The position numbers and the translations under genes are program-made. Below the pieces are notes generated by a model. That model had not been told where the DNA came from and did not search any database. It saw only the letters and a list, made by a program, of their open reading frames with translations. A stretch of 46,276 nt of DNA from a virus, in the IMG/VR virus record IMGVR_UViG_3300020433_000012, positions 1 through 46,276 of that record; one strand, written 5' to 3'. The first letter of the stretch is position 1, and each line of letters opens with the position of its first letter. This document shows, piece by piece, positions 32,933-46,276 of the stretch.

Positions 32933-34393
32933 ATGGCTAAACAAGGACTTCTAGCACAACTTAAACCATCTGCAAACACTGATACGGTGTTTTACTCAGC
33001 ACCTATTGATGCAAGTGCTAGTACGGTGTTGACTGTAGCAAACGACGGAACAGGTTCCGCTTACGATGTGGCAGTAAAGGATTACGATCAAAAAGTTACT
33101 CTTGATGCAAGCACATACAAACTTCATGAAGGTGACTTGATAACATCATCTGTTGTCGAGGTTGGAACTCCAATTTCATCAGAGATAGCAATTAGTCCTG
33201 GTGATCTAATCACTACATCAGATCAAGAAAAAACATTTAAATTTGAATCATTCTTCGTTCCTTCTTTCACAGAAATTTTCGTCAAAGTATTTGCTGTTAG
33301 GGTAGTTCCTGTAGAGTCTGTTACTGGATCATTTGCTGCTGGTGATACAATTAGTAAAGGATCTGGAAGTGACACGACTACTGCTGTGGTATATGGTTAT
33401 GATGATGTCAACACTGCCATCCATATCGGTACTTCTACAATAAATGGTTCTGGAACTGAATTTGCTGCTGGTGATACCATAAGTGTTTCTGGTGGTGCTT
33501 CTGGAACGATCTCAGCATCACCTGCTATCACTGCTGCTAATGATGAATTTGTATTTTCAACTACAACTGCTGGTGGAGTTTACAACATTTACATTGGAAC
33601 TAACAATATTCTTCAATTTTTTGATGATCGTACCTATAGATTTAACGTTGCAGACTCAACAATGAGTGGTAGAGACTTTAAACTTTCTGAAACTGTAAAT
33701 GGTGAGTATGGACCTGACGGTGCAGTAGGTGGTGGTGATGATGGTACAGAATTTACGACAGGCAAAACAACAAACGGCACTGCTGGTTCCTCTGGTGCAT
33801 ATGTACAATATGCTTTCGGAGGCAATGAAACTCCAACAACTTTATTCTTTTATGATGGTGGGACAGGCACTGCATCAAACGGTAATTTTGGTGGTGCTGA
33901 CAGATATATTTCACGTACAACTAGTTACACTTATCCTGGATTTTTTGTTTTTGACAAAGTAGGCACTATCGTTGATAATACTGATACCTTCCTTTTAGGT
34001 GGCATTACTTATACCATTACCAGTCAAACTGCTGGTGCTTATGGATATGTTAGGGATTACACTGGTTCTACTTTAAAGTTTATTAAGGGACTTAATTCTC
34101 CTGATTTTTCTGGATCAGATACTTTCAGGGATGTTCCTAAATCAAACACTGCATCTAGATCTACTGCAACTATTAACAGTATTGATGTTGCATCTGCAGC
34201 AGTGGAAGGATCCAATTACATTACTCAAGGTGTTAGCAATGGTAACAATGAAGTTGATAAGATTACCTCATTAGTTGTTGGACCTGGTGAAACACTTGTC
34301 GTAAAATCAACAACGGCAAATAATGTCTTTAGTCTTATTGGTTTTGAAGATGGTTCAAATTCAATTACGACTAGAGTATTTGGTCAAGGATAA
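32933..34393 (+). CDS. Virion structural protein (486 aa)
   Basis: It starts MAKQGLLAQLKPSANTDTVF, an attachment-type N-terminus. Beta-sandwich-like segments follow, including two copies of a FAAGDTIS(K/V)(G/S) unit (GSFAAGDTISKGSGSD and TEFAAGDTISVSGGASG) and a Gly/Thr-rich middle. The end NITQG-type repeats and GETLVVKSTTANNVFSLIGF are typical for phage surface proteins. It lies 9 nt after the preceding gene and is probably co-expressed. No T4 homolog is recognised. Confidence 0.75.
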   Translation: MAKQGLLAQLKPSANTDTVFYSAPIDASASTVLTVANDGTGSAYDVAVKDYDQKVTLDASTYKLHEGDLITSSVVEVGTPISSEIAISPGDLITTSDQEKTFKFESFFVPSFTEIFVKVFAVRVVPVESVTGSFAAGDTISKGSGSDTTTAVVYGYDDVNTAIHIGTSTINGSGTEFAAGDTISVSGGASGTISASPAITAANDEFVFSTTTAGGVYNIYIGTNNILQFFDDRTYRFNVADSTMSGRDFKLSETVNGEYGPDGAVGGGDDGTEFTTGKTTNGTAGSSGAYVQYAFGGNETPTTLFFYDGGTGTASNGNFGGADRYISRTTSYTYPGFFVFDKVGTIVDNTDTFLLGGITYTITSQTAGAYGYVRDYTGSTLKFIKGLNSPDFSGSDTFRDVPKSNTASRSTATINSIDVASAAVEGSNYITQGVSNGNNEVDKITSLVVGPGETLVVKSTTANNVFSLIGFEDGSNSITTRVFGQG

Positions 34394-34396
34394 ATA
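34390..34396 (+). promoter_or_regulatory. Late promoter ATAAATA
   Basis: It overlaps the stop codon of the preceding gene and lies 20 bp before the large fibre gene at 34417. Confidence 0.55.
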
Positions 34397-34416
34397 ATCA
34401 AAAGGCAGTATAAGAA

Positions 34417-37400
34417 ATGGCACTTACCAGGCTAAAGAATATTATTACGTCCAGAACTGGACGTATTATCTACGTAAACCCTGATGACTTTGATGCTTCA
34501 GATGCTATCGATAACAGAGGTAATTCTGCACTGAGACCTTTTAAGACGATTCAAAGGGCATTTCTTGAAGTTGCCAAGTTTTCATATAGAGTTGGTTTAA
34601 GTAATGACGAGTTTGATGCTTTTAGTATCATGCTTTATCCATCTGAATATATTATTGACAACCGTCCTGGTGAGGTTCTTTATACTAATGTTCCCCCTAT
34701 TGATTCAAACTCAAATTTAGACATCACATCATCTAGCAATGTACTATACAAATACAATTCCATTGAAGGTGGTGTCATTGTACCTAGAGGTTGTTCTCTT
34801 GTTGGTACTGACCTTAGAAGAACTAAAATAATTCCAAAATATGTACCTTATCCAACAACATATGCTGCGAAAGGTATTAATACAGAAGCAGATGTTCCAC
34901 CTCGTTCAGCATTATTTAAAGTAACTGGTGGTACTTACTTCTGGCAATTCTCATTCTTTGATGGTGCAGAAGAAGGTGTATATTATAAACCTGATAGTAC
35001 AGATACATTAGCACCTAAGTTCTCACATCATAGACTTACATGTTTTGAGTTTGCTGATGGTTTGAATCCATTATCAACTCTTATTGCTAAGGGCACTGTA
35101 CCTAACTCCGATTACACTGCTGTTGCAAATATTCAAGAGAGAACTGACCTAGAAATTTATTATCAAAAAGTATCGAAGGCATTTGCTGCTGTTCCTGATA
35201 CATCTGGTGATCCTGATACTGACCAGATTCAGGCAAGAGTAGAAGAAAATCGTATTGTTGGTCCTATTTCTGATGAGTATAGAGTCCTACAAATTACAAG
35301 AAACGGACAAACTGCTACTGCTGTTACTGTTGATGAGTTTGATAATCCAAGAGATCATGGGTTCTCTGTTGGTGTTAACATTAACATTAGTGGTGTTACT
35401 GGATCAACTGGACCTTCATCTGAAGCAGATGCAGGAGTTTATAATGGATCCTTCACGGTTACATCTGCATCTGGTAACGTCTTTACTTATCAAATGCAAT
35501 CAGAACCAACAGGAAATGCTGTGGGTTCAAACGTAACAGTTAAGACTGAGATTGACACTGTTGACTCTGCTTCACCATATGCATTCAACCTATCACTAAG
35601 AAGTGTGTGGGGTATGAATGGTATGCATGCTGATGGTAGTAAGGCAACTGGTTTCAAATCAATGGTTGTGGCACAGTTTACTGGACTGTCACTTCAAAAG
35701 GATGATAGAGCATTTGTTAGATTTAATGCTTCAACTGGTAATTATGATGTAGCAACAGCAGGTGATGGTGCTCACTTAGATGGTTTTGCTGAATACCGTA
35801 AAGGATGGGGTCATGAGCATATCAAATGTTCAAATGATTCATTTATACAGGCGGTGTCTGTATTCGCTGTGGGATATCAAGGTCACTTCACTGCACTAAG
35901 CGGTGGTGACATGTCAATCACCAACTCTAACTCTAACTTTGGTAACACTGCTCTAAGATCAGCAGGTTTCAAAGCAAAAGCATTCTCAAAAGATAAAGCA
36001 GCAGCGATTACTCACATCATACCACCTAAAGCATTAAGTGTTATTTCAACAACTGCTACTGGTACTGCTGCTGCCACAACAATTACACTCGCTGATGATG
36101 GTTCGATTAACGGTCTTGTTCAAGGAGTTGCAGTCAGTGGAAATGGTATTGCTACTGGAGCATTAGTCTCTTCATTTAACACAAATACTAGAGTAGTTAC
36201 TCTTTCTGCAGCAAATACTGGTACTGTTAGTGGCAATGTAATATTTGGTCAAGAAACTTCAGTCAACTGGGTAAACCTTGACATTCAAAGAACAAAAGTA
36301 ATTAATCAGGCACTTGCAAGTGGTGGTGGAACACCTGGAACTAGACTTTACTTGTATGGTTTTACTGTTGAAGCATCTCCACCAACAAGTAAAGTACAAG
36401 GTTTTACTATCGGTGCAAGACAAGATGGCACAGGTGGTAGTGCTGTACCTGACAAATTAAATTGTCTATTAGTTGCAAGTGGTGCATCTGAAGCAACTGT
36501 CCAACAAGCATCAATCTCTCCTTATGGACCTTCTGTTTCTGGTAAAGCACCAGGCACCGTAGGTTCACCATTACAATATGATTCTGGCACATATACCATT
36601 GGTGGATTAGCAGGTCAAGTTGGTGGTTGGTATATCACTGTATCTGATACTGATAATGAAATTTACACAGCAATTAATACAAACACACAATATAATAATG
36701 TAAGTTTTACTCCTACAACTTTCATTAAGAGAATTTCTGACGGTAGAGATCTTCAAGATAGAACATATCGTGTTAGACTTGTAATTGATAAAGATAAGAG
36801 CAATCCATTACCTAGAGATCCTATCTCTGGTTTCGTATTACAACCTTTGAATACTGATACCACTTCATATAACTTAGATAAGTGTTATTACATATATGAT
36901 ATTGAAATTGTTCAAAAATTTGAAAGAGGTGTCAGTGATGGTATTTACTACCTAACATTACTATGCGGATCAATCGCACCGTCAACATCAAACTTTAATG
37001 ACAGAAAATTCTCACAAAATGTCAACGAAGTTTATCCTACATTTGATAGAGACAACCCAGTTGCTGATCCACCTGCTGCTGTATCAGTCGCAGATAACGA
37101 AACTATCGGATTGGTAAATGCAACAGATGGTGCAACACCAACTCCTAATAAAGATCCTAAACGTTCTATTACTAAAGAAGGAATACAATTTATTCTTGCT
37201 GATAGTGGATGGACTCAACCAGGTACAACTCCTGGATGGGATGCAGTTAATAATGAACTCTCTGATGTTGAATTAACTGCTCGTGCTGGTGACGAGGAAG
37301 TTAGAAAGATTAACATTAGAGAAAATAATGATGGTTCTGTAGCACCTATTCCTGTTGAGTTTAGACGACACTCTATTCTAAGATCAGGTAACCATACGTT

Positions 37401-38379
37401 TGAGTATCTTGGTTTTGGTCCAGGTAACTATTCAACTGCATTCCCTCAGACTCAGGTTGAAACTCTAACTCCAGAACAGATTAGATTCTCTCAGTCTATC
37501 AAAGAAGAAGGTGGAGTTTCATTCTACTCAGGTCTTAACTCAAACGGTGACCTATTCATTGGTAACCAAGTTATCAACCCAGTTACAGGTCAGATTACTA
37601 ATGAAGATATTGCTCAGTTGAATGTTATTGGTGAAGAGAACACAACCATCGAAACATTCTCAGAGATTGTTCTTACTGACAAACTCACAGTTATTGGTGG
37701 TGCATCTAACCAGTTAGAATCTATCTTTGCAGGTCCTGTTACATTCCAAGGTCAAGTATCATCTACTGACAATCTTATTGCAAAGAAATTTACTTATAAT
37801 AACCAAGATGGTACAGTAATTAAACAAACATTACTAGCACCTGAAGATGCTCTGGGACAACCTGACTTTAGTAATGTCACAGGATACGATACGCCTGGTG
37901 ATGGAGATTTAGTTTATAATATTAACTGGAGTCCAGGTAAGTCTCTTGGTTGGATTTATTATAGTGCAGTATGGCATGAATTTGGTCTAACTGATACTGG
38001 AGATATTGACATTGGAACGTTCAGTAATGAACAGCATATTGGTATTGGTAAGGTAGCAACTGCTGATTTTAGGGTTGATGTTTTAGGTAATGCTAAGGTA
38101 GATGGTAACTTAGTTGTTACTGGACAAGGTGGTGTTTCTGCTTCCAATTATAAAACTAGAGAATATAATGGTGATGGTACACAGTTAACATTTGCAATCA
38201 CAACATACAGTGGTGGTATTAAACACACTGCAGATTCTGTTCTCGTATTCTTAAATGGTGTTGCTCAGGTTGGTGGAACTGATTATACAGTTGATGGTAC
38301 TGGTGCAAACATTGTGTTTGCGTCAGGGTCAGCACCACTTGCAAGTGATGACATCCATATTGTAGAAATGCCTATCTAA
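34417..38379 (+). CDS. Large tail fibre/virion protein (1320 aa)
   Basis: N-terminus MALTRLKNIITSRTGRIIYV followed by ALRPFKTIQRAFLEVAKFSY, an opening I associate with large cyanophage virion proteins with a right-handed beta-helix (pectin-lyase-like) region: PRGCSLVGTDLRRTKIIPKY and GGDMSITNSNSNFGNTAL fit such coils. The C-terminal 70 residues (TFAITTYSGGIKHTADSVLV then FLNGVAQVGGTDYTVDGTGA) form a tip domain common in phage fibres. It is the longest gene in the window and probably a major host-contact structure; function is inferred. Confidence 0.8.
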   Translation: MALTRLKNIITSRTGRIIYVNPDDFDASDAIDNRGNSALRPFKTIQRAFLEVAKFSYRVGLSNDEFDAFSIMLYPSEYIIDNRPGEVLYTNVPPIDSNSNLDITSSSNVLYKYNSIEGGVIVPRGCSLVGTDLRRTKIIPKYVPYPTTYAAKGINTEADVPPRSALFKVTGGTYFWQFSFFDGAEEGVYYKPDSTDTLAPKFSHHRLTCFEFADGLNPLSTLIAKGTVPNSDYTAVANIQERTDLEIYYQKVSKAFAAVPDTSGDPDTDQIQARVEENRIVGPISDEYRVLQITRNGQTATAVTVDEFDNPRDHGFSVGVNINISGVTGSTGPSSEADAGVYNGSFTVTSASGNVFTYQMQSEPTGNAVGSNVTVKTEIDTVDSASPYAFNLSLRSVWGMNGMHADGSKATGFKSMVVAQFTGLSLQKDDRAFVRFNASTGNYDVATAGDGAHLDGFAEYRKGWGHEHIKCSNDSFIQAVSVFAVGYQGHFTALSGGDMSITNSNSNFGNTALRSAGFKAKAFSKDKAAAITHIIPPKALSVISTTATGTAAATTITLADDGSINGLVQGVAVSGNGIATGALVSSFNTNTRVVTLSAANTGTVSGNVIFGQETSVNWVNLDIQRTKVINQALASGGGTPGTRLYLYGFTVEASPPTSKVQGFTIGARQDGTGGSAVPDKLNCLLVASGASEATVQQASISPYGPSVSGKAPGTVGSPLQYDSGTYTIGGLAGQVGGWYITVSDTDNEIYTAINTNTQYNNVSFTPTTFIKRISDGRDLQDRTYRVRLVIDKDKSNPLPRDPISGFVLQPLNTDTTSYNLDKCYYIYDIEIVQKFERGVSDGIYYLTLLCGSIAPSTSNFNDRKFSQNVNEVYPTFDRDNPVADPPAAVSVADNETIGLVNATDGATPTPNKDPKRSITKEGIQFILADSGWTQPGTTPGWDAVNNELSDVELTARAGDEEVRKINIRENNDGSVAPIPVEFRRHSILRSGNHTFEYLGFGPGNYSTAFPQTQVETLTPEQIRFSQSIKEEGGVSFYSGLNSNGDLFIGNQVINPVTGQITNEDIAQLNVIGEENTTIETFSEIVLTDKLTVIGGASNQLESIFAGPVTFQGQVSSTDNLIAKKFTYNNQDGTVIKQTLLAPEDALGQPDFSNVTGYDTPGDGDLVYNINWSPGKSLGWIYYSAVWHEFGLTDTGDIDIGTFSNEQHIGIGKVATADFRVDVLGNAKVDGNLVVTGQGGVSASNYKTREYNGDGTQLTFAITTYSGGIKHTADSVLVFLNGVAQVGGTDYTVDGTGANIVFASGSAPLASDDIHIVEMPI

Positions 38380-38384
38380 GAACC

Positions 38385-40271
38385 ATGCCTACTTCAAGAG
38401 TTAGTGGTAATCAGATTGAAAATACCACAAATTTAAATATCACAGGACTAGATTTTGCTGGTAACAGTGGTAAATTAAAACTTCCCACAGGAACAGAGGC
38501 ACAAAGACCTGCCTCTGGTGCCATTGGCATGATCCGTTTTAATACGACAGAGGACAGGGCAGAGCAATATGTAATTAATGGACCTGACAATGTACCTGGT
38601 TGGGCAAAGGTAAAAGGTGGTGGTGGTGCTACTGGATTAGGAGTATATGGTCTAATTAAAGGTAATTCGAGAAGTATTGATGAAAATATAGATATTCCTG
38701 CAATTAGTGAGTCATATGCTTTTGATAATGCATTTACAGTAGGACCAGTTATTACTATTTCAAGTGGTTATACTGTTACAGTCGGAGAGGGTGTTGATTG
38801 GACTATTGTTGAGACTGGTTTTGAACCAAATACTCTAGGCAGTGGTGGATTTGCGGGTAAAATTGGACCAAGTTGGGCAAATATTGGATCTGATGATGGA
38901 ATTGGAGAATTTAATTTAATTCGTGGTAACTCAAGAACTATAGATCAAAATTTAGTTATTCCATTTAATCCTTCTACAAATGATTATGCCTTCGAAGAAT
39001 CATTTTCAGTGGGACCGACCATTACCATTACAAGTGGAAATACTGTCACTGTTAGTAGTGGTGTCACATATGAAATATTAGACACTTCTTCATTACCACC
39101 TACAGGTCCAACCTTTAATGTATCTGTAGATCCTACTAGTGTTAATGAGGGAGATACATTTACAACTACCATTACAACTACTGGTGTTGATGATGGTACT
39201 ATTCTTTACTGGGAGATAACTGGTGTATCCTCTGATGATTTTGCTACAGCACCAATCTTTCCAGCAACACAAGGACAAGTTATAATAGCTAGTGGTACTG
39301 CAGACTTCTCACATGGTCTTGCCAATGATGAAACTACTGAGGGAACAGAGACTGCCACTATTAAATTTTATAGTGATTCTGAAAGAACTCAACAGGTTGG
39401 TGATACTGTAACTGTTACTATTGCAGATACTTCCGACACACCACCAGCTGCACCACCAGGTCAAACACAGTGGACAAGTGCTCAAACAACTTCATTCACT
39501 GTACCTGCTGGTGCGTTTACTATTTCTGCTGTAGTAGTTGGCGGTGGAGGCGGTGGCGGAGGTTGCATTGGTAACTCTGGTACTGGTTCTGGTGCTGGTG
39601 GTGGAGGAGGACTCTCATGGGGAAATTTCCCAACCAATCCTGGTGAAACTTTAACTATTCGGGTAGGTGCTAGAGGTGGCGGTGGTAATAGTAATGGTAG
39701 TAATGGTAGTCCTGGTGGTGATAGTTATATACAACGTAGTGGCACTAATCTTCTCTTCGCAGGAGGAGGTGGAGGTGGACAAGGTGAAGCATCTAACAAC
39801 ACTGGTGCTGGACCAGGTGGAACAGGTGCTTCTGGTACAGGTGCTCAAGGTGGTGGTAATGGTGGTAGAGGATCTCAAGCTCATAATGACGCATCTGCTC
39901 AAGGTGGTGGAGGTGCTGGAGGATATTCTGGTGCTGGTGGTATTGGCGGTAGATCAAGTACTGGTACTAATGGAAGCGGTGGTGCAGGATCAGGTGGTAG
40001 TGGTAGTAACACCTATGGAGGTGGCGGCGGTGGAGTCGGCATCTTAGGTTCAGGATCATCTGGTACTGGAGGAAATGGTGCTGGTGGATCTGGAGGATCT
40101 CAAGGTGGTAATGGTAATGGATCAACTTCACAAGGTGGTGGTGATTATGGAGGTGGCGGTGGTGCTGCTGAAGATGACACTAGAGATAGTGGTGGTGATG
40201 GCGGTGTAGGTGCTGTAAGAATTTTATGGGGTGGTGGTAGGTCATACCCCAGTAACGCAGGAAGTGTATAA
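38385..40271 (+). CDS. Glycine-rich tail adhesin 1 (628 aa)
   Basis: Modular. Residues 1-85 form an attachment domain (SRVSGNQIENTTNLNITGLD). Residues about 86-145 and 167-225 are two copies of an L-I-(K/R)-G-N-S-R-(S/T)-I-D unit ending in I-T-(I)-S-G-x-T-V-T-V. Then a Calx-beta-like domain (VDPTSVNEGDTFTTTITTTG). Residues 360-628 form a polyglycine-rich tip with runs of eight Gly and an end AVRILWGGGRSYPSNAGSV. The tip is almost the same, also at DNA level, as that of the gene at 43005. It probably binds a host surface receptor like polyglycine-sandwich adhesins of T-even relatives. Confidence 0.8.
   Translation: MPTSRVSGNQIENTTNLNITGLDFAGNSGKLKLPTGTEAQRPASGAIGMIRFNTTEDRAEQYVINGPDNVPGWAKVKGGGGATGLGVYGLIKGNSRSIDENIDIPAISESYAFDNAFTVGPVITISSGYTVTVGEGVDWTIVETGFEPNTLGSGGFAGKIGPSWANIGSDDGIGEFNLIRGNSRTIDQNLVIPFNPSTNDYAFEESFSVGPTITITSGNTVTVSSGVTYEILDTSSLPPTGPTFNVSVDPTSVNEGDTFTTTITTTGVDDGTILYWEITGVSSDDFATAPIFPATQGQVIIASGTADFSHGLANDETTEGTETATIKFYSDSERTQQVGDTVTVTIADTSDTPPAAPPGQTQWTSAQTTSFTVPAGAFTISAVVVGGGGGGGGCIGNSGTGSGAGGGGGLSWGNFPTNPGETLTIRVGARGGGGNSNGSNGSPGGDSYIQRSGTNLLFAGGGGGGQGEASNNTGAGPGGTGASGTGAQGGGNGGRGSQAHNDASAQGGGGAGGYSGAGGIGGRSSTGTNGSGGAGSGGSGSNTYGGGGGGVGILGSGSSGTGGNGAGGSGGSQGGNGNGSTSQGGGDYGGGGGAAEDDTRDSGGDGGVGAVRILWGGGRSYPSNAGSV
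39480..40271 (+). repeat. Adhesin tip module, copy 1 (related to 43110-43907)
   Basis: Long identical DNA stretches are shared with the gene at 43005, for example about 38 nt from 39570 (matching 43209) and about 27 nt from 39642 (matching 43281). Protein identity is high throughout the tip. Confidence 0.75.
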
Positions 40272-40280
40272 TACCACTAT

Positions 40281-40288
40281 GATAAATA
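40281..40288 (+). promoter_or_regulatory. Late promoter GATAAATA
   Basis: The box lies 27 bp before the short fibre gene at 40316, with AAGGAGGA between. Confidence 0.55.
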
Positions 40289-40315
40289 CAAGGAGGACAG
40301 TGTTCTAAAAAAGAA

Positions 40316-40756
40316 ATGACAACTACAAGAATTAGTGATAACCAAATTGATGAAGCAACTTCTGCAACTATCACGACACTGAATTTTCTAAATACTAACA
40401 GCGAATTTAGAATTCCTGTTGGTGATACTGCAACAAGACCAGGCAGTCCTGCTATTGGTATGTTGCGATTTAATACTGAAAATGATAAAGCAGAAATTTA
40501 TGTTGCTGATGCTGACGGTGATGGAAATGCTGGATGGATTAATCTAGGTGCTGGTGCTGGTGGCGGTGTTAATGTTTTGGGTGATAATAATAATATTAGA
40601 GGAAACCCTAAGACTATTGCTGAAAATCTTGAAATTCCTGATCCCGCAACAGATAAATCATTTGAAAATGCTTTCAGTCTCGGACCAAAATTGACCATTG
40701 CCAGTGGTTATTTCGTCACAGTTCCTAGTGGAGTTAATTGGCGTATTTTCGATTAA
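40316..40756 (+). CDS. Short fibre protein, stand-alone copy of the adhesin stem (146 aa)
   Basis: MTTTRISDNQIDEATSATIT and GMLRFNTENDKAEIYVADAD match the N-terminus of the adhesin at 38385, followed by one copy of the N-I-R-G-N-P-K-T-I-A-E-N-L-E-I-P unit ending ITIASG-type strands and NWRIFD. It ends where the longer protein would begin its Calx-beta and glycine tip, so it is a truncated or modular stem without adhesin. Confidence 0.75.
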   Translation: MTTTRISDNQIDEATSATITTLNFLNTNSEFRIPVGDTATRPGSPAIGMLRFNTENDKAEIYVADADGDGNAGWINLGAGAGGGVNVLGDNNNIRGNPKTIAENLEIPDPATDKSFENAFSLGPKLTIASGYFVTVPSGVNWRIFD

Positions 40757-40772
40757 TTATAGGTATTAACTA

Positions 40773-41399
40773 ATGTCACAAATAAATGTAAACAAAGTTA
40801 TCTCTCCATCCCAAGCGGCAAGCGACGGACCAACTATTGATATTGCCGCTAATGGTAATATATCTTTAGATACGGATACAGTTTTTGTAGATTCTACAAA
40901 TAATCGCTTGGGAATAGGTACTACATCCCCCTCTAGGACATTAGACATACAAGAAAGTGGTGGTGTATCATTTAGTGCTGGTGTTATCTTTGAATCTTGT
41001 CAAATAACTGGAACTGGACTAAGTGGAACAGCAAATCATGATGTTGAATCAGAAAATGCTAAGTACTACAACGGTACTGCATCTGGAAACTGGACTTATA
41101 ACGTAAGATATAATTCTTCTACAACATTAGATTCAATGATGAGTGTAGGTGAGACTATTAATATCTCATACATAACTCCAGTTGGAGGAAGTAGTTACTA
41201 TGAAACAGGATTTACGATTGATGGTTCTTCTGTAACTGTGCAATGGGTAGCAGATATATCACCTGTTCAGGGTGGTGGAAGAGAAGGCAGTGAACCTGCA
41301 GCGACATCAGGATTTGATGTGTATAATTTTGCCATTAATAAACATGGCAGTAACTCATACTACGTTCTTGGATCGCATACGCACTTTGGTCAATTCTAG
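40773..41399 (+). CDS. Fibre-type protein (208 aa), paralog of the next
   Basis: N-terminus SQINVNKVISPSQAASDGPT then DTVFVDSTNNRLGIGTTSPS, the N-R-(L/V)-G-I-(G/N) module of many phage fibres. The C-terminal half (residues 75-208) is a compact beta domain with GNWTYNVRYNSSTTLDSMMS and GSNSYYVLGSHTHFGQF. It shares layout and many residues with the 196-residue protein after it. The start lies 16 nt after the previous stop. Confidence 0.75.
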   Translation: MSQINVNKVISPSQAASDGPTIDIAANGNISLDTDTVFVDSTNNRLGIGTTSPSRTLDIQESGGVSFSAGVIFESCQITGTGLSGTANHDVESENAKYYNGTASGNWTYNVRYNSSTTLDSMMSVGETINISYITPVGGSSYYETGFTIDGSSVTVQWVADISPVQGGGREGSEPAATSGFDVYNFAINKHGSNSYYVLGSHTHFGQF

Positions 41400-41407
41400 T
41401 ATAAATA
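41400..41407 (+). promoter_or_regulatory. Late promoter TATAAATA
   Basis: The box begins one base after the previous stop region and 22 bp before the gene at 41430. Confidence 0.6.
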
Positions 41408-41429
41408 ATCAAACAATAGGTATAACGAG

Positions 41430-42020
41430 ATGTCTCAACTAAATGTAGATGCACTAAAACACTCTCAGGGAACTGGACCTGGTATTGATCTACAAAGTAG
41501 TGGTAATTTTGCATTTGATACAAGCACACTGTATGTCGATTCTGTTAATGATAGAGTCGGAATTAATGATGCCACACCAAGTCGCTCTTTAGATGTTGCT
41601 GGTAGTGAGGGTGTCAATCTAGGTGCTGGTCCTATATTTGAAGGAGTAAATATTGTCAGTGGATCTTCTAATAGTAATACCAACATTGACCTATTAACAT
41701 CATCAGTTCATTTGTTTACTTCTTCTAATACTGGCAACTGGACTCCCAACTTTAGAGGAGATTCTTCTACCAGTTTAGATAGTATAATGTCTACTGGTCA
41801 GGTTATTGTTGCTACTATCATTTCCCAAAATGGTGGAAGCAGTGGTTATGCATCAAACATGAATATTGATGGAAGTGGACAAACTGAGTATTGGTCAAAT
41901 GATGACACCCCTGACGAAAGAGGTGGTACATCTGGATATGACGTATACCAATACAGCATAATTAAAACTGGTTCTGGTAATAGTTACTTAGTTTTAGCAA
42001 ATAGAACATATATGGATTAA
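41430..42020 (+). CDS. Fibre-type protein (196 aa), paralog of the previous
   Basis: SQLNVDALKHSQGTGPGIDL and TLYVDSVNDRVGINDATPSR correspond to the opening of the gene at 40773, and the C-terminal domain has GNWTPNFRGDSSTSLDSIMS and GNSYLVLANRTYMD in matching places. The spacing N-W-T, S-T-(T)-L-D-S-(M/I)-M-S, and S-Y-(Y)-V-L shows common descent. Likely a receptor-binding or stem subunit encoded in tandem; function is inferred from neighbours. Confidence 0.75.
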   Translation: MSQLNVDALKHSQGTGPGIDLQSSGNFAFDTSTLYVDSVNDRVGINDATPSRSLDVAGSEGVNLGAGPIFEGVNIVSGSSNSNTNIDLLTSSVHLFTSSNTGNWTPNFRGDSSTSLDSIMSTGQVIVATIISQNGGSSGYASNMNIDGSGQTEYWSNDDTPDERGGTSGYDVYQYSIIKTGSGNSYLVLANRTYMD

Positions 42021-42025
42021 AAATT

Positions 42026-42994
42026 ATGTCACCTATTTTTTCACAATTTTCATCTGGTGGTGGTGGTAGAGCAGCAGGTTTTGGTATGGGACCAATGGGT
42101 GGCGGTGGTTTATATGCTTTTACATTTGCATCATTTGGTGGTAACAATGGGAGAAGTCATCAAGGTCCAAGTCTTTCACAAGCTCGTTCGGGATTAACTG
42201 GAGGGGAAACATCCCAATGGAAAAACAATACATCATTTTTTAATACAACGAGTGGAATTCAATTATGGACTGTACCAGTTGACGGGACATATCGAATTGA
42301 AGCACATGGTGGTAGAGGTGGATACACTGGTGCTGGTGGTGGATATGGAGCTCGGATGCGAGGTGACTTCGATTTAACTGAAGGAGAAGTAATTAGAATA
42401 CTGGTAGGTCAACAGGGAAGGCAAGGAGGACACCCTTTTCAGGGTGGTAGTAGTGGAGTTGGTGGTGGTGGAGGTGGTTCATTTGTTGTAAGATCACCAT
42501 ATAATACCAATCAATCTATTTTAGTAATCGCTGGTGGCGGTGGTTCTGGTGCTAGTAACATATGGTCTAGTCAGTCAGGAGATAACGCAAGCACTGGTAC
42601 TAGTGGTACTGGTGGTGGACAAGGATCACCAGGATCTAATGGTCAAGGTGCACCTTATGTTCCTTATGGTGGTCCTGCTGCTGGATTTTTTAGTGATGGT
42701 GGAGGAAGTTCAGGAACTTCATCAAGTGATTATGCTAGAGCATTCGTGAATGGAGGAAACGGTGGTAGTGGTGCAAGAAGTTGGGGTGGTACTGATGCCA
42801 AGGGTGGTTTTGGCGGCGGAGGCGGTTCTGGTATCGCTTGCGGCGGAGGCGGCGGTTACTCTGGTGGATCAGGTGGAAGCTGGTCAAGCAGCCAAAGAGG
42901 TGGTGGTGGCGGTTCATATAATAATGGCACCAACCAAAGTAACGGAATAACCAGTCGAGGCAGTCATGGAGTAGTTACAGTCACATTAGTATAA
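42026..42994 (+). CDS. Glycine-rich tail adhesin 2 (322 aa)
   Basis: N-terminal anchor SPIFSQFSSGGGGRAAGFGM, shared with the gene at 43005. Then a domain resembling the Gly_rich family known from ALK-type receptors: LWTVPVDGTYRIEAHGGRGG, GEVIRILVGQQGRQGG, SFVVRSPYNTNQSILVIAGG, followed by several Gly runs and an ending SHGVVTVTLV. Unlike adhesins 1 and 3 its tip is of a different subtype. No Shine-Dalgarno is visible. Probably an interchangeable receptor-binding tip. Confidence 0.75.
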   Translation: MSPIFSQFSSGGGGRAAGFGMGPMGGGGLYAFTFASFGGNNGRSHQGPSLSQARSGLTGGETSQWKNNTSFFNTTSGIQLWTVPVDGTYRIEAHGGRGGYTGAGGGYGARMRGDFDLTEGEVIRILVGQQGRQGGHPFQGGSSGVGGGGGGSFVVRSPYNTNQSILVIAGGGGSGASNIWSSQSGDNASTGTSGTGGGQGSPGSNGQGAPYVPYGGPAAGFFSDGGGSSGTSSSDYARAFVNGGNGGSGARSWGGTDAKGGFGGGGGSGIACGGGGGYSGGSGGSWSSSQRGGGGGSYNNGTNQSNGITSRGSHGVVTVTLV

Positions 42995-43004
42995 TATTAG
43001 AACA

Positions 43005-43907
43005 ATGACACCTATTTTTTCTCAATTTTCATCTGGCGGCGGCGGTAGAGCATCTGGTTTCGGTATGGGACCAATGGGTGGTGCTGTTGCTGAACCAGGT
43101 CAACAACAGTGGACAAGTTCCACAACAACTAGTTGGACTGTGCCTAGTGGTGTAAGTCAAATATCTGCTGTCGTTGTTGGAGGCGGTGGTGGAGGAGGAG
43201 GCGGTGCTGGTAACTCTGGTACTGGTTCTGGTGCTGGTGGTGGAGGTGGTCTTTCATGGGGTACTTTTTCTGTAAGCAGTGGTGAAACTTTAACTATTCG
43301 GGTAGGTAATAGAGGTAGTGGTGGTGGATTTGGTAGTAGTCCTGGTAGTCCTGGTGGTGAGAGTTATATAAGAAGAAGTGGAATTAATCTCCTATATGCT
43401 GGTGGAGGTGGTAGAGGTATTGCAGAGGCATCTAATAATACTGGTGGAGGATCTGGTGGTACAGGTTATTCTGGTTCAGGTGCTCAAGGTGGTGGTAATG
43501 GTGGTCCTGGTTCAAATGCTATTAATGATGCAGGTCAGCAAGGTGGCGGTGGTGCTGGAGGATATACAGGAAGTGGTGGACAAGGTGGTCGATCAGGTTC
43601 TGGTTCACCTGGTTCTGGCGGTGGCGGTGCTGGAGGTGGCGGTTCATCCTATGGTGGTGGAGGAGGAGGCGTAGGCATCCTCGGTTCTGGTTCAAGTGGT
43701 TCAGCAAATGGTGGCGGTGGATCTGGTGGTCAATCTGGTGGACAAGGACAAAACACTAGTAACCAGTATGGTGGAAATTATGGTGGAGGTGGAGGTGCAC
43801 CAGAAGATGACACCTATGGACCAGGTGGAACAGGTGGATCTGGTGCTGTAAGAATAATTTGGGGTGAGGGTAGATCCTACCCAAGTACCAACGTTGGTGA
43901 CGTATAA
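43005..43907 (+). CDS. Glycine-rich tail adhesin 3 (300 aa)
   Basis: It joins the same first 25 residues as adhesin 2 (TPIFSQFSSGGGGRASGFGM) to the same tip as adhesin 1 (QQWTSSTTTSWTVPSGVSQI, runs of nine Gly, end AVRIIWGEGRSYPSTNVGDV). It is therefore a chimera of the two. The tip is likely the host-receptor binding part. It is the last gene of the virion block and is followed by the terminator at 43952. Confidence 0.78.
   Translation: MTPIFSQFSSGGGGRASGFGMGPMGGAVAEPGQQQWTSSTTTSWTVPSGVSQISAVVVGGGGGGGGGAGNSGTGSGAGGGGGLSWGTFSVSSGETLTIRVGNRGSGGGFGSSPGSPGGESYIRRSGINLLYAGGGGRGIAEASNNTGGGSGGTGYSGSGAQGGGNGGPGSNAINDAGQQGGGGAGGYTGSGGQGGRSGSGSPGSGGGGAGGGGSSYGGGGGGVGILGSGSSGSANGGGGSGGQSGGQGQNTSNQYGGNYGGGGGAPEDDTYGPGGTGGSGAVRIIWGEGRSYPSTNVGDV
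43110..43907 (+). repeat. Adhesin tip module, copy 2
   Basis: Second copy of the module at 39480-40271; see that entry. The bases 43005-43080 in turn repeat 42026-42100 (the shared anchor). Confidence 0.75.
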
Positions 43908-43951
43908 GTAATCAAGATTGATAAGATGTGACAATCAACATAAGTGGCACA

Positions 43952-43986
43952 AGAGGGTTTACATACCCTCTTTTTTGTGGCATAAT
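43952..43986 (+). promoter_or_regulatory. Merged terminator and promoter
   Basis: AGAGGGT (43952-43958) pairs with ACCCTCT (43965-43971), followed by a T-run. -35 TTTACA (43958-43963) lies in the loop and CATAAT (43981-43986) is 17 bp on. The start near 43993 gives a 17-nt leader for the gene at 44010. Fourth example of this arrangement in the window. Confidence 0.75.
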
Positions 43987-44009
43987 AACAAGGTACTCAA
44001 TATAGGATC

Positions 44010-44225
44010 ATGCCTCAATTTAAACTCGTCTGCACTGATGATGACGAAACAATCTCAACTAAAGAATTTGAAGCAACAATTCTTGATGAAGTTGTAGAAA
44101 AAACAGAAGACTTTCTTAAAGGAGTTGGTTATGTTTTTGAAGGACTAAGAACAGAGGTTCATCCTGTAAAAAAGATCAATAAACTACATAAGGATTACAT
44201 CACAACCTACAGAAATGTAGACTGA
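44010..44225 (+). CDS. Small hypothetical protein (71 aa)
   Basis: MPQFKLVCTDDDETISTKEF then EVVEKTEDFLKGVGYVFEGL and a basic end. A strand-helix-strand outline; one cysteine. It is the first gene behind the composite promoter at 43952 and starts a series of small early-type genes. Not recognised. Confidence 0.65.
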   Translation: MPQFKLVCTDDDETISTKEFEATILDEVVEKTEDFLKGVGYVFEGLRTEVHPVKKINKLHKDYITTYRNVD

Positions 44226-44268
44226 TATATAACTGTAAGTAGTTTATCATAACTTCAAACTCACTAAC

Positions 44269-44448
44269 ATGGGCAAGACTTTTAGGCGTGGCGGTAGTGA
44301 ACAGGGATACTATTCTCCTGGTAAATCTATCCGAGATAAACGACAAAGTTCAAGTAAATTTCGAAACCTAAATGAAACTAATCATTCCAGAAACAAAAGG
44401 GGAAAACCTAGAAAATTAGATCAATTTGCTGACAACAATGAATGGTAA
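44269..44448 (+). CDS. Small basic protein (59 aa)
   Basis: It translates as MGKTFRRGGSEQGYYSPGKS then IRDKRQSSSKFRNLNETNHS and a lysine/arginine-rich part ending DQFADNNEW. Low hydrophobicity and many Arg/Lys/Ser/Asn suggest a disordered, nucleic-acid-binding protein. A weak promoter (CTGATA 44222, 17 bp, TATCAT 44245) may give a leader of about 12 nt. Its end overlaps the next start by 11 nt in another frame. Confidence 0.6.
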   Translation: MGKTFRRGGSEQGYYSPGKSIRDKRQSSSKFRNLNETNHSRNKRGKPRKLDQFADNNEW

Positions 44449-44611
44449 CGACACTGAAAAATTCAACAGAGGACTAGATCTATTTGTTGAATCGGTTATG
44501 AAACCCGACCACGCACTTCGCCAATGTGCCCACAACCAAAAATGCTATAACGAATTAATGAACATTCGTGAGCATGTACTTGATTATCTTCAAACTTTAC
44601 GACATCAATGA
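44438..44611 (+). CDS. Small hypothetical protein (57 aa)
   Basis: ATG 44438 is chosen; an upstream TTG at 44426 would add four residues. MNGNDTEKFNRGLDLFVESV then CAHNQKCYNELMNIREHVLD: helical with a C-x5-C pair. It overlaps both neighbours (previous stop; ATGA with the next). Function unknown. Confidence 0.6.
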   Translation: MNGNDTEKFNRGLDLFVESVMKPDHALRQCAHNQKCYNELMNIREHVLDYLQTLRHQ

Positions 44612-44811
44612 CCATTGGCATTCACTCAGCAATCCTGATTAAGGATCAAAAAATGATATTAAAAGACGCATTACTTTTGTATGTTTCAGACTTGCAAAAG
44701 AAACATTTTAGTGCTAAAGTAGTTGATGAAGATGTCTACCTATCTAAAATGAAAGAGGTAGAGGAAATTGTCAAGACGTTAAGACTTGACGATCTGTACA
44801 AATATAAGTGA
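44608..44811 (+). CDS. Small hypothetical protein (67 aa)
   Basis: ATGA overlap with the preceding gene. Helical: MILKDALLLYVSDLQKKHFS and KMKEVEEIVKTLRLDDLYKY. An internal ATG after GATTAAGGATC (near 44653) is a possible alternative start. No motif recognised. Confidence 0.6.
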   Translation: MTIGIHSAILIKDQKMILKDALLLYVSDLQKKHFSAKVVDEDVYLSKMKEVEEIVKTLRLDDLYKYK

Positions 44812-44861
44812 CTCATGTGACAGTCAACAAACTGACACACCTATCTGCACATCATCTTCAA

Positions 44862-44880
44862 TTGACATTATACTATTATC
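44862..44880 (+). promoter_or_regulatory. Possible leaderless early promoter
   Basis: TATACT (44869-44874) as -10 places the start at about 44881, exactly on the ATG. The expected -35 position (44846-44851, TGCACA) is weak, and TTGACA at 44862 is too close to serve it. Confidence 0.4.
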
Positions 44881-45051
44881 ATGTTTGACAAAGACATTCG
44901 CCTATTGAACAAAGTCATCCGCTTGGGAGAAAGCGGTAAAGTCCAATATACGGACAAAGAACTGATTAAGTTGAAGAAAAAACGTAGTCAGTTACGTGAT
45001 TGGAAACAATCTGCTAAAATTTCACAATCCAGAGGTTTCGGTTATGACTAA
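44881..45051 (+). CDS. Small basic helical protein (56 aa)
   Basis: It translates as MFDKDIRLLNKVIRLGESGK then VQYTDKELIKLKKKRSQLRD and WKQSAKISQSRGFGYD. Strongly basic helix pair. It overlaps the next gene by 8 nt and follows a 69-nt gap that holds a -10-like box. Not recognised. Confidence 0.6.
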   Translation: MFDKDIRLLNKVIRLGESGKVQYTDKELIKLKKKRSQLRDWKQSAKISQSRGFGYD

Positions 45052-45184
45052 AAGACTATTTGTTCCATCAGTTGAATATGATGAGCAGTTTGACAACTGT
45101 CAAGAGCGAGAGGACGATTGGGTTTCCTCAGTTATCGGATCTGATGCCGATGCAATTTATGATGTACTTTCTGAAATCAAATGA
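45044..45184 (+). CDS. Small acidic protein (46 aa)
   Basis: Start ATG 45044 is chosen because the extra upstream 16 residues (from 44996) lie inside the preceding gene. MTKRLFVPSVEYDEQFDNCQ then WVSSVIGSDADAIYDVLSEI. Acidic with one cysteine; ATGA overlap with the next gene. It may bind the basic neighbour, but this is speculation. Confidence 0.6.
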   Translation: MTKRLFVPSVEYDEQFDNCQEREDDWVSSVIGSDADAIYDVLSEIK

Positions 45185-45429
45185 CAGTTATTTTAGAACG
45201 GTATCCATACCGTTATGTCCAGTCTGGTGTTATTGAATTGAACGGTAAACCAGACTATCGTATCCAAAAATGGAACGAATACACAAGAAGATATAATGAC
45301 ATGTATCTTCTTGATAGTGCCATGCAACTAGATTATGCCATGGAAGACTTTGAGTATACCAAATGGTTAGATCCATCTGGTGTACCATGTTATGTAAAAG
45401 ATCACGCAACACACAATGACGACAACTGA
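45181..45429 (+). CDS. Small hypothetical protein (82 aa)
   Basis: ATGA overlap with the preceding gene. Tyr-rich beta segments MTVILERYPYRYVQSGVIEL and KPDYRIQKWNEYTRRYNDMY, then LDSAMQLDYAMEDFEYTKWL. A conserved-looking compact domain, not recognised. It overlaps the ParB-like gene by 14 nt. Confidence 0.6.
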   Translation: MTVILERYPYRYVQSGVIELNGKPDYRIQKWNEYTRRYNDMYLLDSAMQLDYAMEDFEYTKWLDPSGVPCYVKDHATHNDDN

Positions 45430-46276
45430 ACCTAACGTAGGACAAGACTACGAAAATCTTAATTCACAATTTGGTGTAGAACCTACTGCACATGAAATCA
45501 ATGAAAATCTTCTATTCAATAGTGAGTTATTGAATCGTTGCCGTCAGGAATGTCAACCAATTGATTATTTGGTTGTCAAATATGGTGGTAAGATGATTAA
45601 TAATGAATTACAACTAGTTAACATTCATACAATACATCCAGCAGGTAAAGAGATAAGGAATAATAAAACTCTGAAAGTAAAGTCAAAAGGATTTCAGATT
45701 AGGTCTGACACCAATATCAATGAAAAACAAAAGAATAGTGTTCTTAACGATATTTGGAATGGATATTGGAAACCTAGTAGACCTGCAATAGTATTATTTC
45801 GTTTACCTAAAGAGTATGAATACGATAATGTTAAAGAGGGTGTTCGAGTAATCTGGGGTATTGTTGATGGGTCACACCGTTTTGCTGCTGCTAGTGATGC
45901 TAATCAAGAAAATCTTATCACTTGGTTGATTGACATGCCACTTAATAAAATTCCTAAGTTTGCTAATGCTGAACTAAACAGAGTTGACTGTCGTCAATTA
46001 GAAAGAGATCCATTAGATGTTGCTGCATCAATTTGTAATGATATTTTGGATGAAGAATCTGATCTCTATGCAAAACTTGAAAATGCAGAGGATGGAGAAA
46101 AAGATAAGATTTTGCGTGATGAAATAAGAACTTATAATTATAGTCATCACATGGAGATTGATGGTATTCTTCGTAAGATTCAACATAATCCTAACGTAGT
46201 TGTTGATCGTAAACAGTATGGTTCAGATCAAATGAAGAACTATATTGCAGAACATGTAATCAACTGGAGTAAAACT
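45416..46276 (+). CDS. ParB/Srx-like protein, N-terminal part (runs off the window)
   Basis: The frame is open for 287 codons to the last base. The region VIWGIVDGSHRFAAASDANQ at about residues 145-165 has the G-(S)-H-R-F core of the ParB/sulfiredoxin fold, preceded by PSRPAIVLFRLPKEYEYD. Phages carry ParB-like proteins as CTP-dependent DNA binders, nucleases or nucleotide hydrolases; the subtype cannot be told. A later helical part (SICNDILDEESDLYAKLENA) follows. The gene overlaps the preceding one. Confidence 0.7.
   Translation, partial: MTTTEPNVGQDYENLNSQFGVEPTAHEINENLLFNSELLNRCRQECQPIDYLVVKYGGKMINNELQLVNIHTIHPAGKEIRNNKTLKVKSKGFQIRSDTNINEKQKNSVLNDIWNGYWKPSRPAIVLFRLPKEYEYDNVKEGVRVIWGIVDGSHRFAAASDANQENLITWLIDMPLNKIPKFANAELNRVDCRQLERDPLDVAASICNDILDEESDLYAKLENAEDGEKDKILRDEIRTYNYSHHMEIDGILRKIQHNPNVVVDRKQYGSDQMKNYIAEHVINWSKT

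Follow-up and report, generated by a model that had tools for sequence, protein, structure and literature searches.

The viral record IMGVR_UViG_3300020433_000012 of IMG/VR was analysed over its whole length of 46,276 nucleotides (nt), hereafter the window, which is perhaps a fragment. It carries a fibre cassette with three glycine-rich genes, whose predicted products we call adhesins 1, 2 and 3. Judged by sequence, the window is a piece of a T4-like cyanophage (Kyanoviridae) close to the Palaemonvirus Prochlorococcus phage P-SSM7. For positions 34000-46276, P-SSM7 is the nearest record (86.7% identity, 75% of the query covered) and S-CAM22 the second (80.2% identity over 57%). The gene order of the cassette is that of P-SSM7 genes 037-042 and S-CAM22 genes 031-036, and two IMG/VR contigs, L008 and L013, carry the same cassette. 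In P-SSM7 and S-CAM22, its glycine-rich genes are annotated as hypothetical.

All features lie on the plus strand. A large tail-fibre gene (34417..38379; phrog_529, counterpart of PSSM7_037) precedes the cassette. The open reading frame (ORF) of adhesin 1 (38385-40271, 628 amino acids, aa) comprises a stem part (38385..39080), a linker (39096..39455) and a tip (39456..40271, including the stop). The stem part is the counterpart of whole genes in the relatives, namely PSSM7_038 (234 aa), S-CAM22_032 (236 aa) and the genes of L008 and L013 (236 aa). Two paralogous phrog_5906 genes (40773..41399 and 41430..42020) follow further downstream; they are kept as a pair in P-SSM7, S-CAM22, L008 and L013. 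Adhesin 2 (42026-42994, 322 aa) consists of a 25-aa anchor (42026..42100) and a tip resembling the TG domain of ALK/LTK (42101..42994, including the stop). In adhesin 3 (43005-43907, 300 aa), a 25-aa anchor (43005..43079) is followed by a tip at 43095..43907, again including the stop. The tips of adhesins 1 and 3 both match Pfam Gly_rich_2 (PF21722) above the curated cut-off of 24.3 bits (30.7 and 30.5 bits, respectively), and the Pfam scan gave no PF21722 match for adhesin 2.

A gene of 146 aa at 40316..40756, between adhesin 1 and the phrog_5906 pair, had been taken for a stem without its tip in a previous interpretation made from the letters alone (the sequence-only reading). It is an ordinary conserved gene: the same tipless 146-aa gene is present in P-SSM7, S-CAM22, L008 and L013, which rules out a lost-tip relic. 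Nor did we see any free-standing spare tip of the kind that reading had proposed, every glycine-rich domain being located inside a complete ORF.

Relatives of both Gly_rich_2 tips were found in the contigs L009 and L010, which have two adjacent genes, A and B, each combining a glycine-rich tip with a collar-type stem (about 123 aa). A 14-row protein tree, drawing on four of at least 13 confirmed loci (L028, L029, L031 with two genes, and L037; L027 was not used), left the A/B group unresolved, and we therefore relied on a codon-aligned DNA test of six rows: the tips of adhesins 1 and 3 and the A and B tips of L009 and L010. Those of P-SSM7, S-CAM22 and L041 were too distant to be included. The tree joining adhesin 1 with A and adhesin 3 with B reached a log-likelihood of -3075.0, against -3212.9 for the tree joining adhesin 1 with adhesin 3 and -3214.1 for the third tree. 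The approximately unbiased (AU) test rejected both of the latter, with p values of 3.4e-6 (log-likelihood difference 138) and 6.7e-6, respectively. Informative nucleotide patterns were distributed 79:9:5 among the first tree, the adhesin 1+3 tree and the crossed tree, and adhesin 3 grouped with both B tips with a bootstrap of 100. At the nucleotide level, the adhesin 1 tip is 82.3% identical to L010A and the adhesin 3 tip 87.0% identical to L010B, compared with 71.3% (72.9% in aa) between adhesins 1 and 3 in the codon alignment. The test, together with the greater nearness of adhesin 3 to L010B than to adhesin 1, identifies tips A and B as two separate lineages that are older than this genome. 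Their carriers differ, being a long stem or an anchor in the window and collar-type stems in L009 and L010. Tips with 82-87% nucleotide identity on unlike stems form a domain mosaic.

More relatives may exist, since the scan that supplied these loci returned at least 599 stretches. L040 and L043, which also came up as matches, proved on inspection to contain unrelated genes. The removal of glycine-rich sequence by the low-complexity filter is the probable reason why a tblastn search of phages with adhesin 3 found nothing. A DNA search with the adhesin 1 tip retrieved only fragments, covering 5-17% of the query, from phages of Serratia and Erwinia. Among bacterial genome contigs, 595 pattern matches included no confirmed relative, a result to which the caveat of the low-complexity filter also applies.

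The sequence-only reading had described a modular cassette in which adhesin 3 was a natural chimera, its anchor equal to that of adhesin 2 and its tip equal to that of adhesin 1, with long identical DNA runs. The cassette itself exists: the ORFs lie as described, the phrog_5906 genes are paralogous, adhesins 2 and 3 have their first 25 aa in common, and adhesins 1 and 3 have a glycine-rich domain in common at their C-termini. The modules, however, are not equal. Direct comparison shows that 43005-43080 differs from 42026-42100 (67 of 75 ungapped nt agree) and that 43110-43907 differs from 39480-40271, with DNA identity of 71-74% (74.3% when the ungapped columns of a simple alignment are counted). 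The longest exact run between the tips of adhesins 1 and 3 does exceed the maximum of 21 nt reached in 200 codon shuffles, but it measures only 39 nt, and a run of equal length is found, at the corresponding position, between tips A and B of L010. Their local alignment score of 508 lies far above chance (maximum 63 in 200 codon shuffles). Considering scores above the shuffles and the modest identity, the relation between these two tips is real but old. The adhesin 2 tip yielded DNA scores of 35 against adhesin 3 and 39 against adhesin 1, below the shuffle maxima of 49 and 51. P-SSM7 gene 042 and S-CAM22 gene 036 are likewise built from an anchor with a Gly_rich_2-like tip behind it, so that adhesin 3 is no oddity in this respect. 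Adhesin 1 is the more strongly composite protein, its three parts differing in their sequence affinity. The sequence-only reading was right about modular genes shaped by recombination within the cassette; by our comparisons, the parts have closer relatives outside this genome. Its expectation that the locus is independent of a reverse transcriptase agrees with our finding no match to the reverse transcriptase family PF00078 in the 46-kb window, itself a fragment; a diversity-generating retroelement was thus not recognised.

The edges of the blocks can be placed by comparison with the relatives. In P-SSM7, L008 and L013, the stem-1 gene ends with a TGA directly before TAAATACAAGG, and the S-CAM22 gene runs on for one more codon and stops before ATAAATACAA. 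The last stem codon of the window ends at 39080, and the TGA at 40280 follows only after a further 1199 nt (39081..40279, comprising linker and tip A). Since their stem-1 genes end within one codon of each other, all four relatives compared lack this block. The second block (43083..43925) is common to gene B of L009 and L010 and appears grafted behind the anchor of adhesin 3. It includes 12 nt of upstream linker (11/12 matching L009B and L010B), tip B with its stop, and a 3' flank of 18 nt (16/18 matching), past which the recipient sequence common to P-SSM7 and L008 resumes. At a threshold of at least 15/18, this 3' flank was found among 548,361 bases only in the L009 and L010 contigs and in the copies of the window. 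The adhesin 3 anchor matches L008 at 70 of 75 nt, adhesin 2 and L013 at 67 each, and P-SSM7 at 66. By these counts it is slightly nearer to L008 than to the adhesin 2 anchor of its own genome, although 75 nt give only a weak signal as to its origin.

Two short tracts depart from the overall history of the tips. Five consecutive informative sites unite adhesins 1 and 3 at tip nt 195-208, corresponding to 39651..39664 and 43290..43303 of the window (permutation p 5e-5), and a crossed pattern occupies three consecutive sites at tip nt 152-158 (p 0.006). Both suggest short gene conversion between paralogous tips.

Residues 238-357 of adhesin 1 form the linker, of which the window has a single copy. 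The linker matched no significant Pfam family, and its immunoglobulin-like (Ig-like) nature was judged by eye. A tblastn search of phages found it in Marine virus AG-345-F15 at 61.9%. A pattern scan, whose pattern was derived from the window and L025 and hence favours that type, retrieved six IMG/VR contigs, all six encoding the linker in a gene with a terminase on at least one side. With L025 included, seven of seven relatives match at 60-62% aa identity. The nearest relatives of the linker belong to a different locus of other cyanophages, where the neighbouring genes are putative terminases. In L025 (6701-8665) and in L045-L050, the terminase-adjacent gene has the same linker domain fused to varying C-termini, LamG-like or other, as assessed by eye. 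This gene is possibly another recognition gene, outside the fibre cassette.

Predicted structures divide the tips into what look like two kinds of TNF-like/glycine-rich module, Pam3-type and ALK-type. The adhesin 3 model has a mean predicted local distance difference test score (pLDDT) of 59.6, residues ~30-140 being good and the glycine part poor; residues 1-26 score below 50 and form no helix. Its closest match is the Pam3 fibre (7ypx), with Z 19.7, 194 aligned residues at 2.7 A and 27% identity, and other matches were the Bxb1 tail tip (9d93, Z 16.9) and ALK (Z about 10). The TNF-like plus glycine-rich fold of a Pam3 gp24-type tip can thus be recognised in the adhesin 3 model, with the moderate weight that its pLDDT allows. 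The adhesin 2 model (mean pLDDT 52.9) aligns with the ALK/LTK TG domain (9g5i) at Z 22.9 over 259 residues (3.1 A) and with Pam3 at Z 6.8. At the level of fold only, it has the TNF-like core and glycine-helix insert of that domain. A phmmer search with adhesin 2 also hit LTK/ALK at E 3.6e-5, a value inflated by the strong glycine bias, and ALK structures may have been available to the fold predictor in training. The sequence-only reading had suggested testing the tips for polyglycine sandwiches: the models do point to glycine-rich modules, and the S16 gp38 structure 6F45 was not among the fold matches listed, which says nothing against a likeness of fold, to it or to other structures missing from those matches.

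Tips like that of adhesin 2 are present in contigs L008, L013, L014, L018, L019, L021 and L041 and in S-CREM1 (L026). In L041 (2377-4529, minus strand), two adjoining genes with near-identical collar stems differ in their tips, one being ALK-type and the other Gly_rich_2-like, which recalls how adhesins 2 and 3 use a single anchor type. L031 (3206-6447) contains tandem genes in which a glycine-rich tip is seemingly nested within a LamG-like protein.

The sequence comparisons establish modular carriers and tips, lineages shared with other cyanophages, block edges and local exchange. We consider it likely that the locus is a natural mosaic of predicted receptor-binding adhesins, each a carrier and a tip, with blocks gained by recombination with other cyanophages. 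Each adhesin would begin with a carrier, either a long stem or a 25-aa anchor plug, and continue into a TNF-like/glycine-rich tip. In this phage, tip A, together with a linker of another affinity, closes a conserved stem gene, and tip B, together with a donor-like 3' flank, follows the 25-aa anchor. We infer that the blocks were gained from co-infecting cyanophages through recombination at short similarities near domain edges, and that short local exchange between tips A and B came later. The carrier may dock on the fibre or baseplate, with the loops between glycine runs contacting cell-surface receptors, and the gain of a tip may change or widen host choice. Several points weigh against this history. 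The donor side is represented by L009 and L010 only, which are much alike (92.3-92.7% nt identity), and the direction of transfer is a deduction. Behind tip A, a 3' trace of 6/8 nt is not long enough to demonstrate a joint move of the pair. The contrary nucleotide patterns (nine internal, five crossed) are partly clustered, and in the tip windows 0-90, 135-225 and 765-810 other trees exceed the main one by about 2-4 likelihood units. As for the fold models, their mean pLDDT values are low (59.6 and 52.9), and much of the glycine part does not reach 50.

An origin of adhesin 3 inside the genome itself, with adhesin 2 supplying the anchor and adhesin 1 the tip, would account for an anchor agreeing at 67/75 nt and a tip family shared in one genome, as well as for the 39-nt exact run and the one conversion-like tract between adhesins 1 and 3. 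It is hardly credible, however: the six-tip test rejects the tree that it requires (AU p 3.4e-6), tip B is 87% identical to L010B versus 71% to adhesin 1, the anchor is closer to L008 (70/75) than to adhesin 2, and the 3' flank agrees with L009 and L010, not with adhesin 1. Glycine repeats are prone to mis-joins during assembly, and the window is a virus record without reads for checking, so that a metagenome artefact joining repeats of glycine-rich genes deserves mention. This we regard as very unlikely, given that both blocks return directly to syntenic sequence with intact reading frames, and that the nearest other copies of the tips diverge from them by 13-18%.

Rather more weight, although still little, can be given to tips A and B being ancestral in the cassette and lost by P-SSM7, S-CAM22, L008 and L013. 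Both tips are old and present in at least two cyanophage groups, as this history would predict. Against it, the four relatives end stem 1 alike, within one codon and with no remnants, which would need several equally precise losses, and the adhesin 3 block has the flank sequence of the other carrier type. Slightly less probable is that the glycine-rich proteins are structural parts of the fibre or baseplate, or act on the infected cell, rather than binding receptors. Their position in a fibre cassette and the hypothetical annotation in P-SSM7 and S-CAM22 are compatible with such roles; the Pam3 fibre-tip fold of the adhesin 3 model speaks for receptor binding, as does C-terminal exchange on kept N-termini, which Smug et al. 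2023 (PMC10684548) present as typical of receptor binders.

Within the favoured history of a mosaic built by recombination, a further proposal is more doubtful: tips A and B might travel between cyanophage genera as a co-inherited pair and then split over two unlike carriers, the 25-aa anchor serving as a general plug for a Pam3-type or an ALK-type tip. If true, one particle would carry three tips, refreshed by block transfer and by short exchanges between paralogues. The locus shows where the blocks end, puts names to the families of carriers and tips, and offers a rule open to testing: a short anchor plus an exchangeable tip. It also illustrates that two like tips in one genome can mimic an internal hybrid though both have nearer relatives elsewhere, and the predicted ALK-type fold of adhesin 2 may bear on the origin of the animal TG domain.

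Our searches of an open-access library listed no description of this cassette. Related topics in the literature are metaviromic islands with fibre genes (PMC3909814), the cyanophage S-TIM4 (PMC6224464), and cyanomyovirus genomes with the virion proteomics of S-SM1 (PMC3037559). P-SSM7 (038-042) and S-CAM22 (032-036) have the gene order of the window, and their genes 042 and 036, the one tip-like place in each complete record, combine anchor and tip as adhesin 3 does. Unlike the window, both have a stem 1 without a tip and a single anchor gene. The closest solved fold to adhesin 3 is that of Pam3 gp24 (7ypx, 7yfw), a cyanophage fibre whose receptor-recognising domains, TNF-like and glycine-rich, are described in PMC9608196. 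Where Pam3 has a helical docking domain, the adhesins of the window have a 25-aa anchor or a long stem; Pam3 also has a chaperone gene, gp25, a kind of gene for which the window was not searched. For adhesin 2, a phage protein, the closest solved fold is the ALK/LTK TG domain of animal receptors. According to PMC6851490 and PMC12892980, gp38 adhesins of the S16/T2 type have glycine-rich motifs and hypervariable loops at the fibre tip. These polyglycine sandwiches share glycine-rich motifs with the tips of the window; in addition, gp38 contains a beta-helix and attaches through a helical domain. Phage receptor-binding proteins are already known to shuffle their domains, and otherwise unrelated tail proteins share high-identity fragments across phages (Smug et al. 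2023). The locus is a well-resolved example of such mosaics, to which it adds two tips that are neighbours in one phage and dispersed over two carriers in another.

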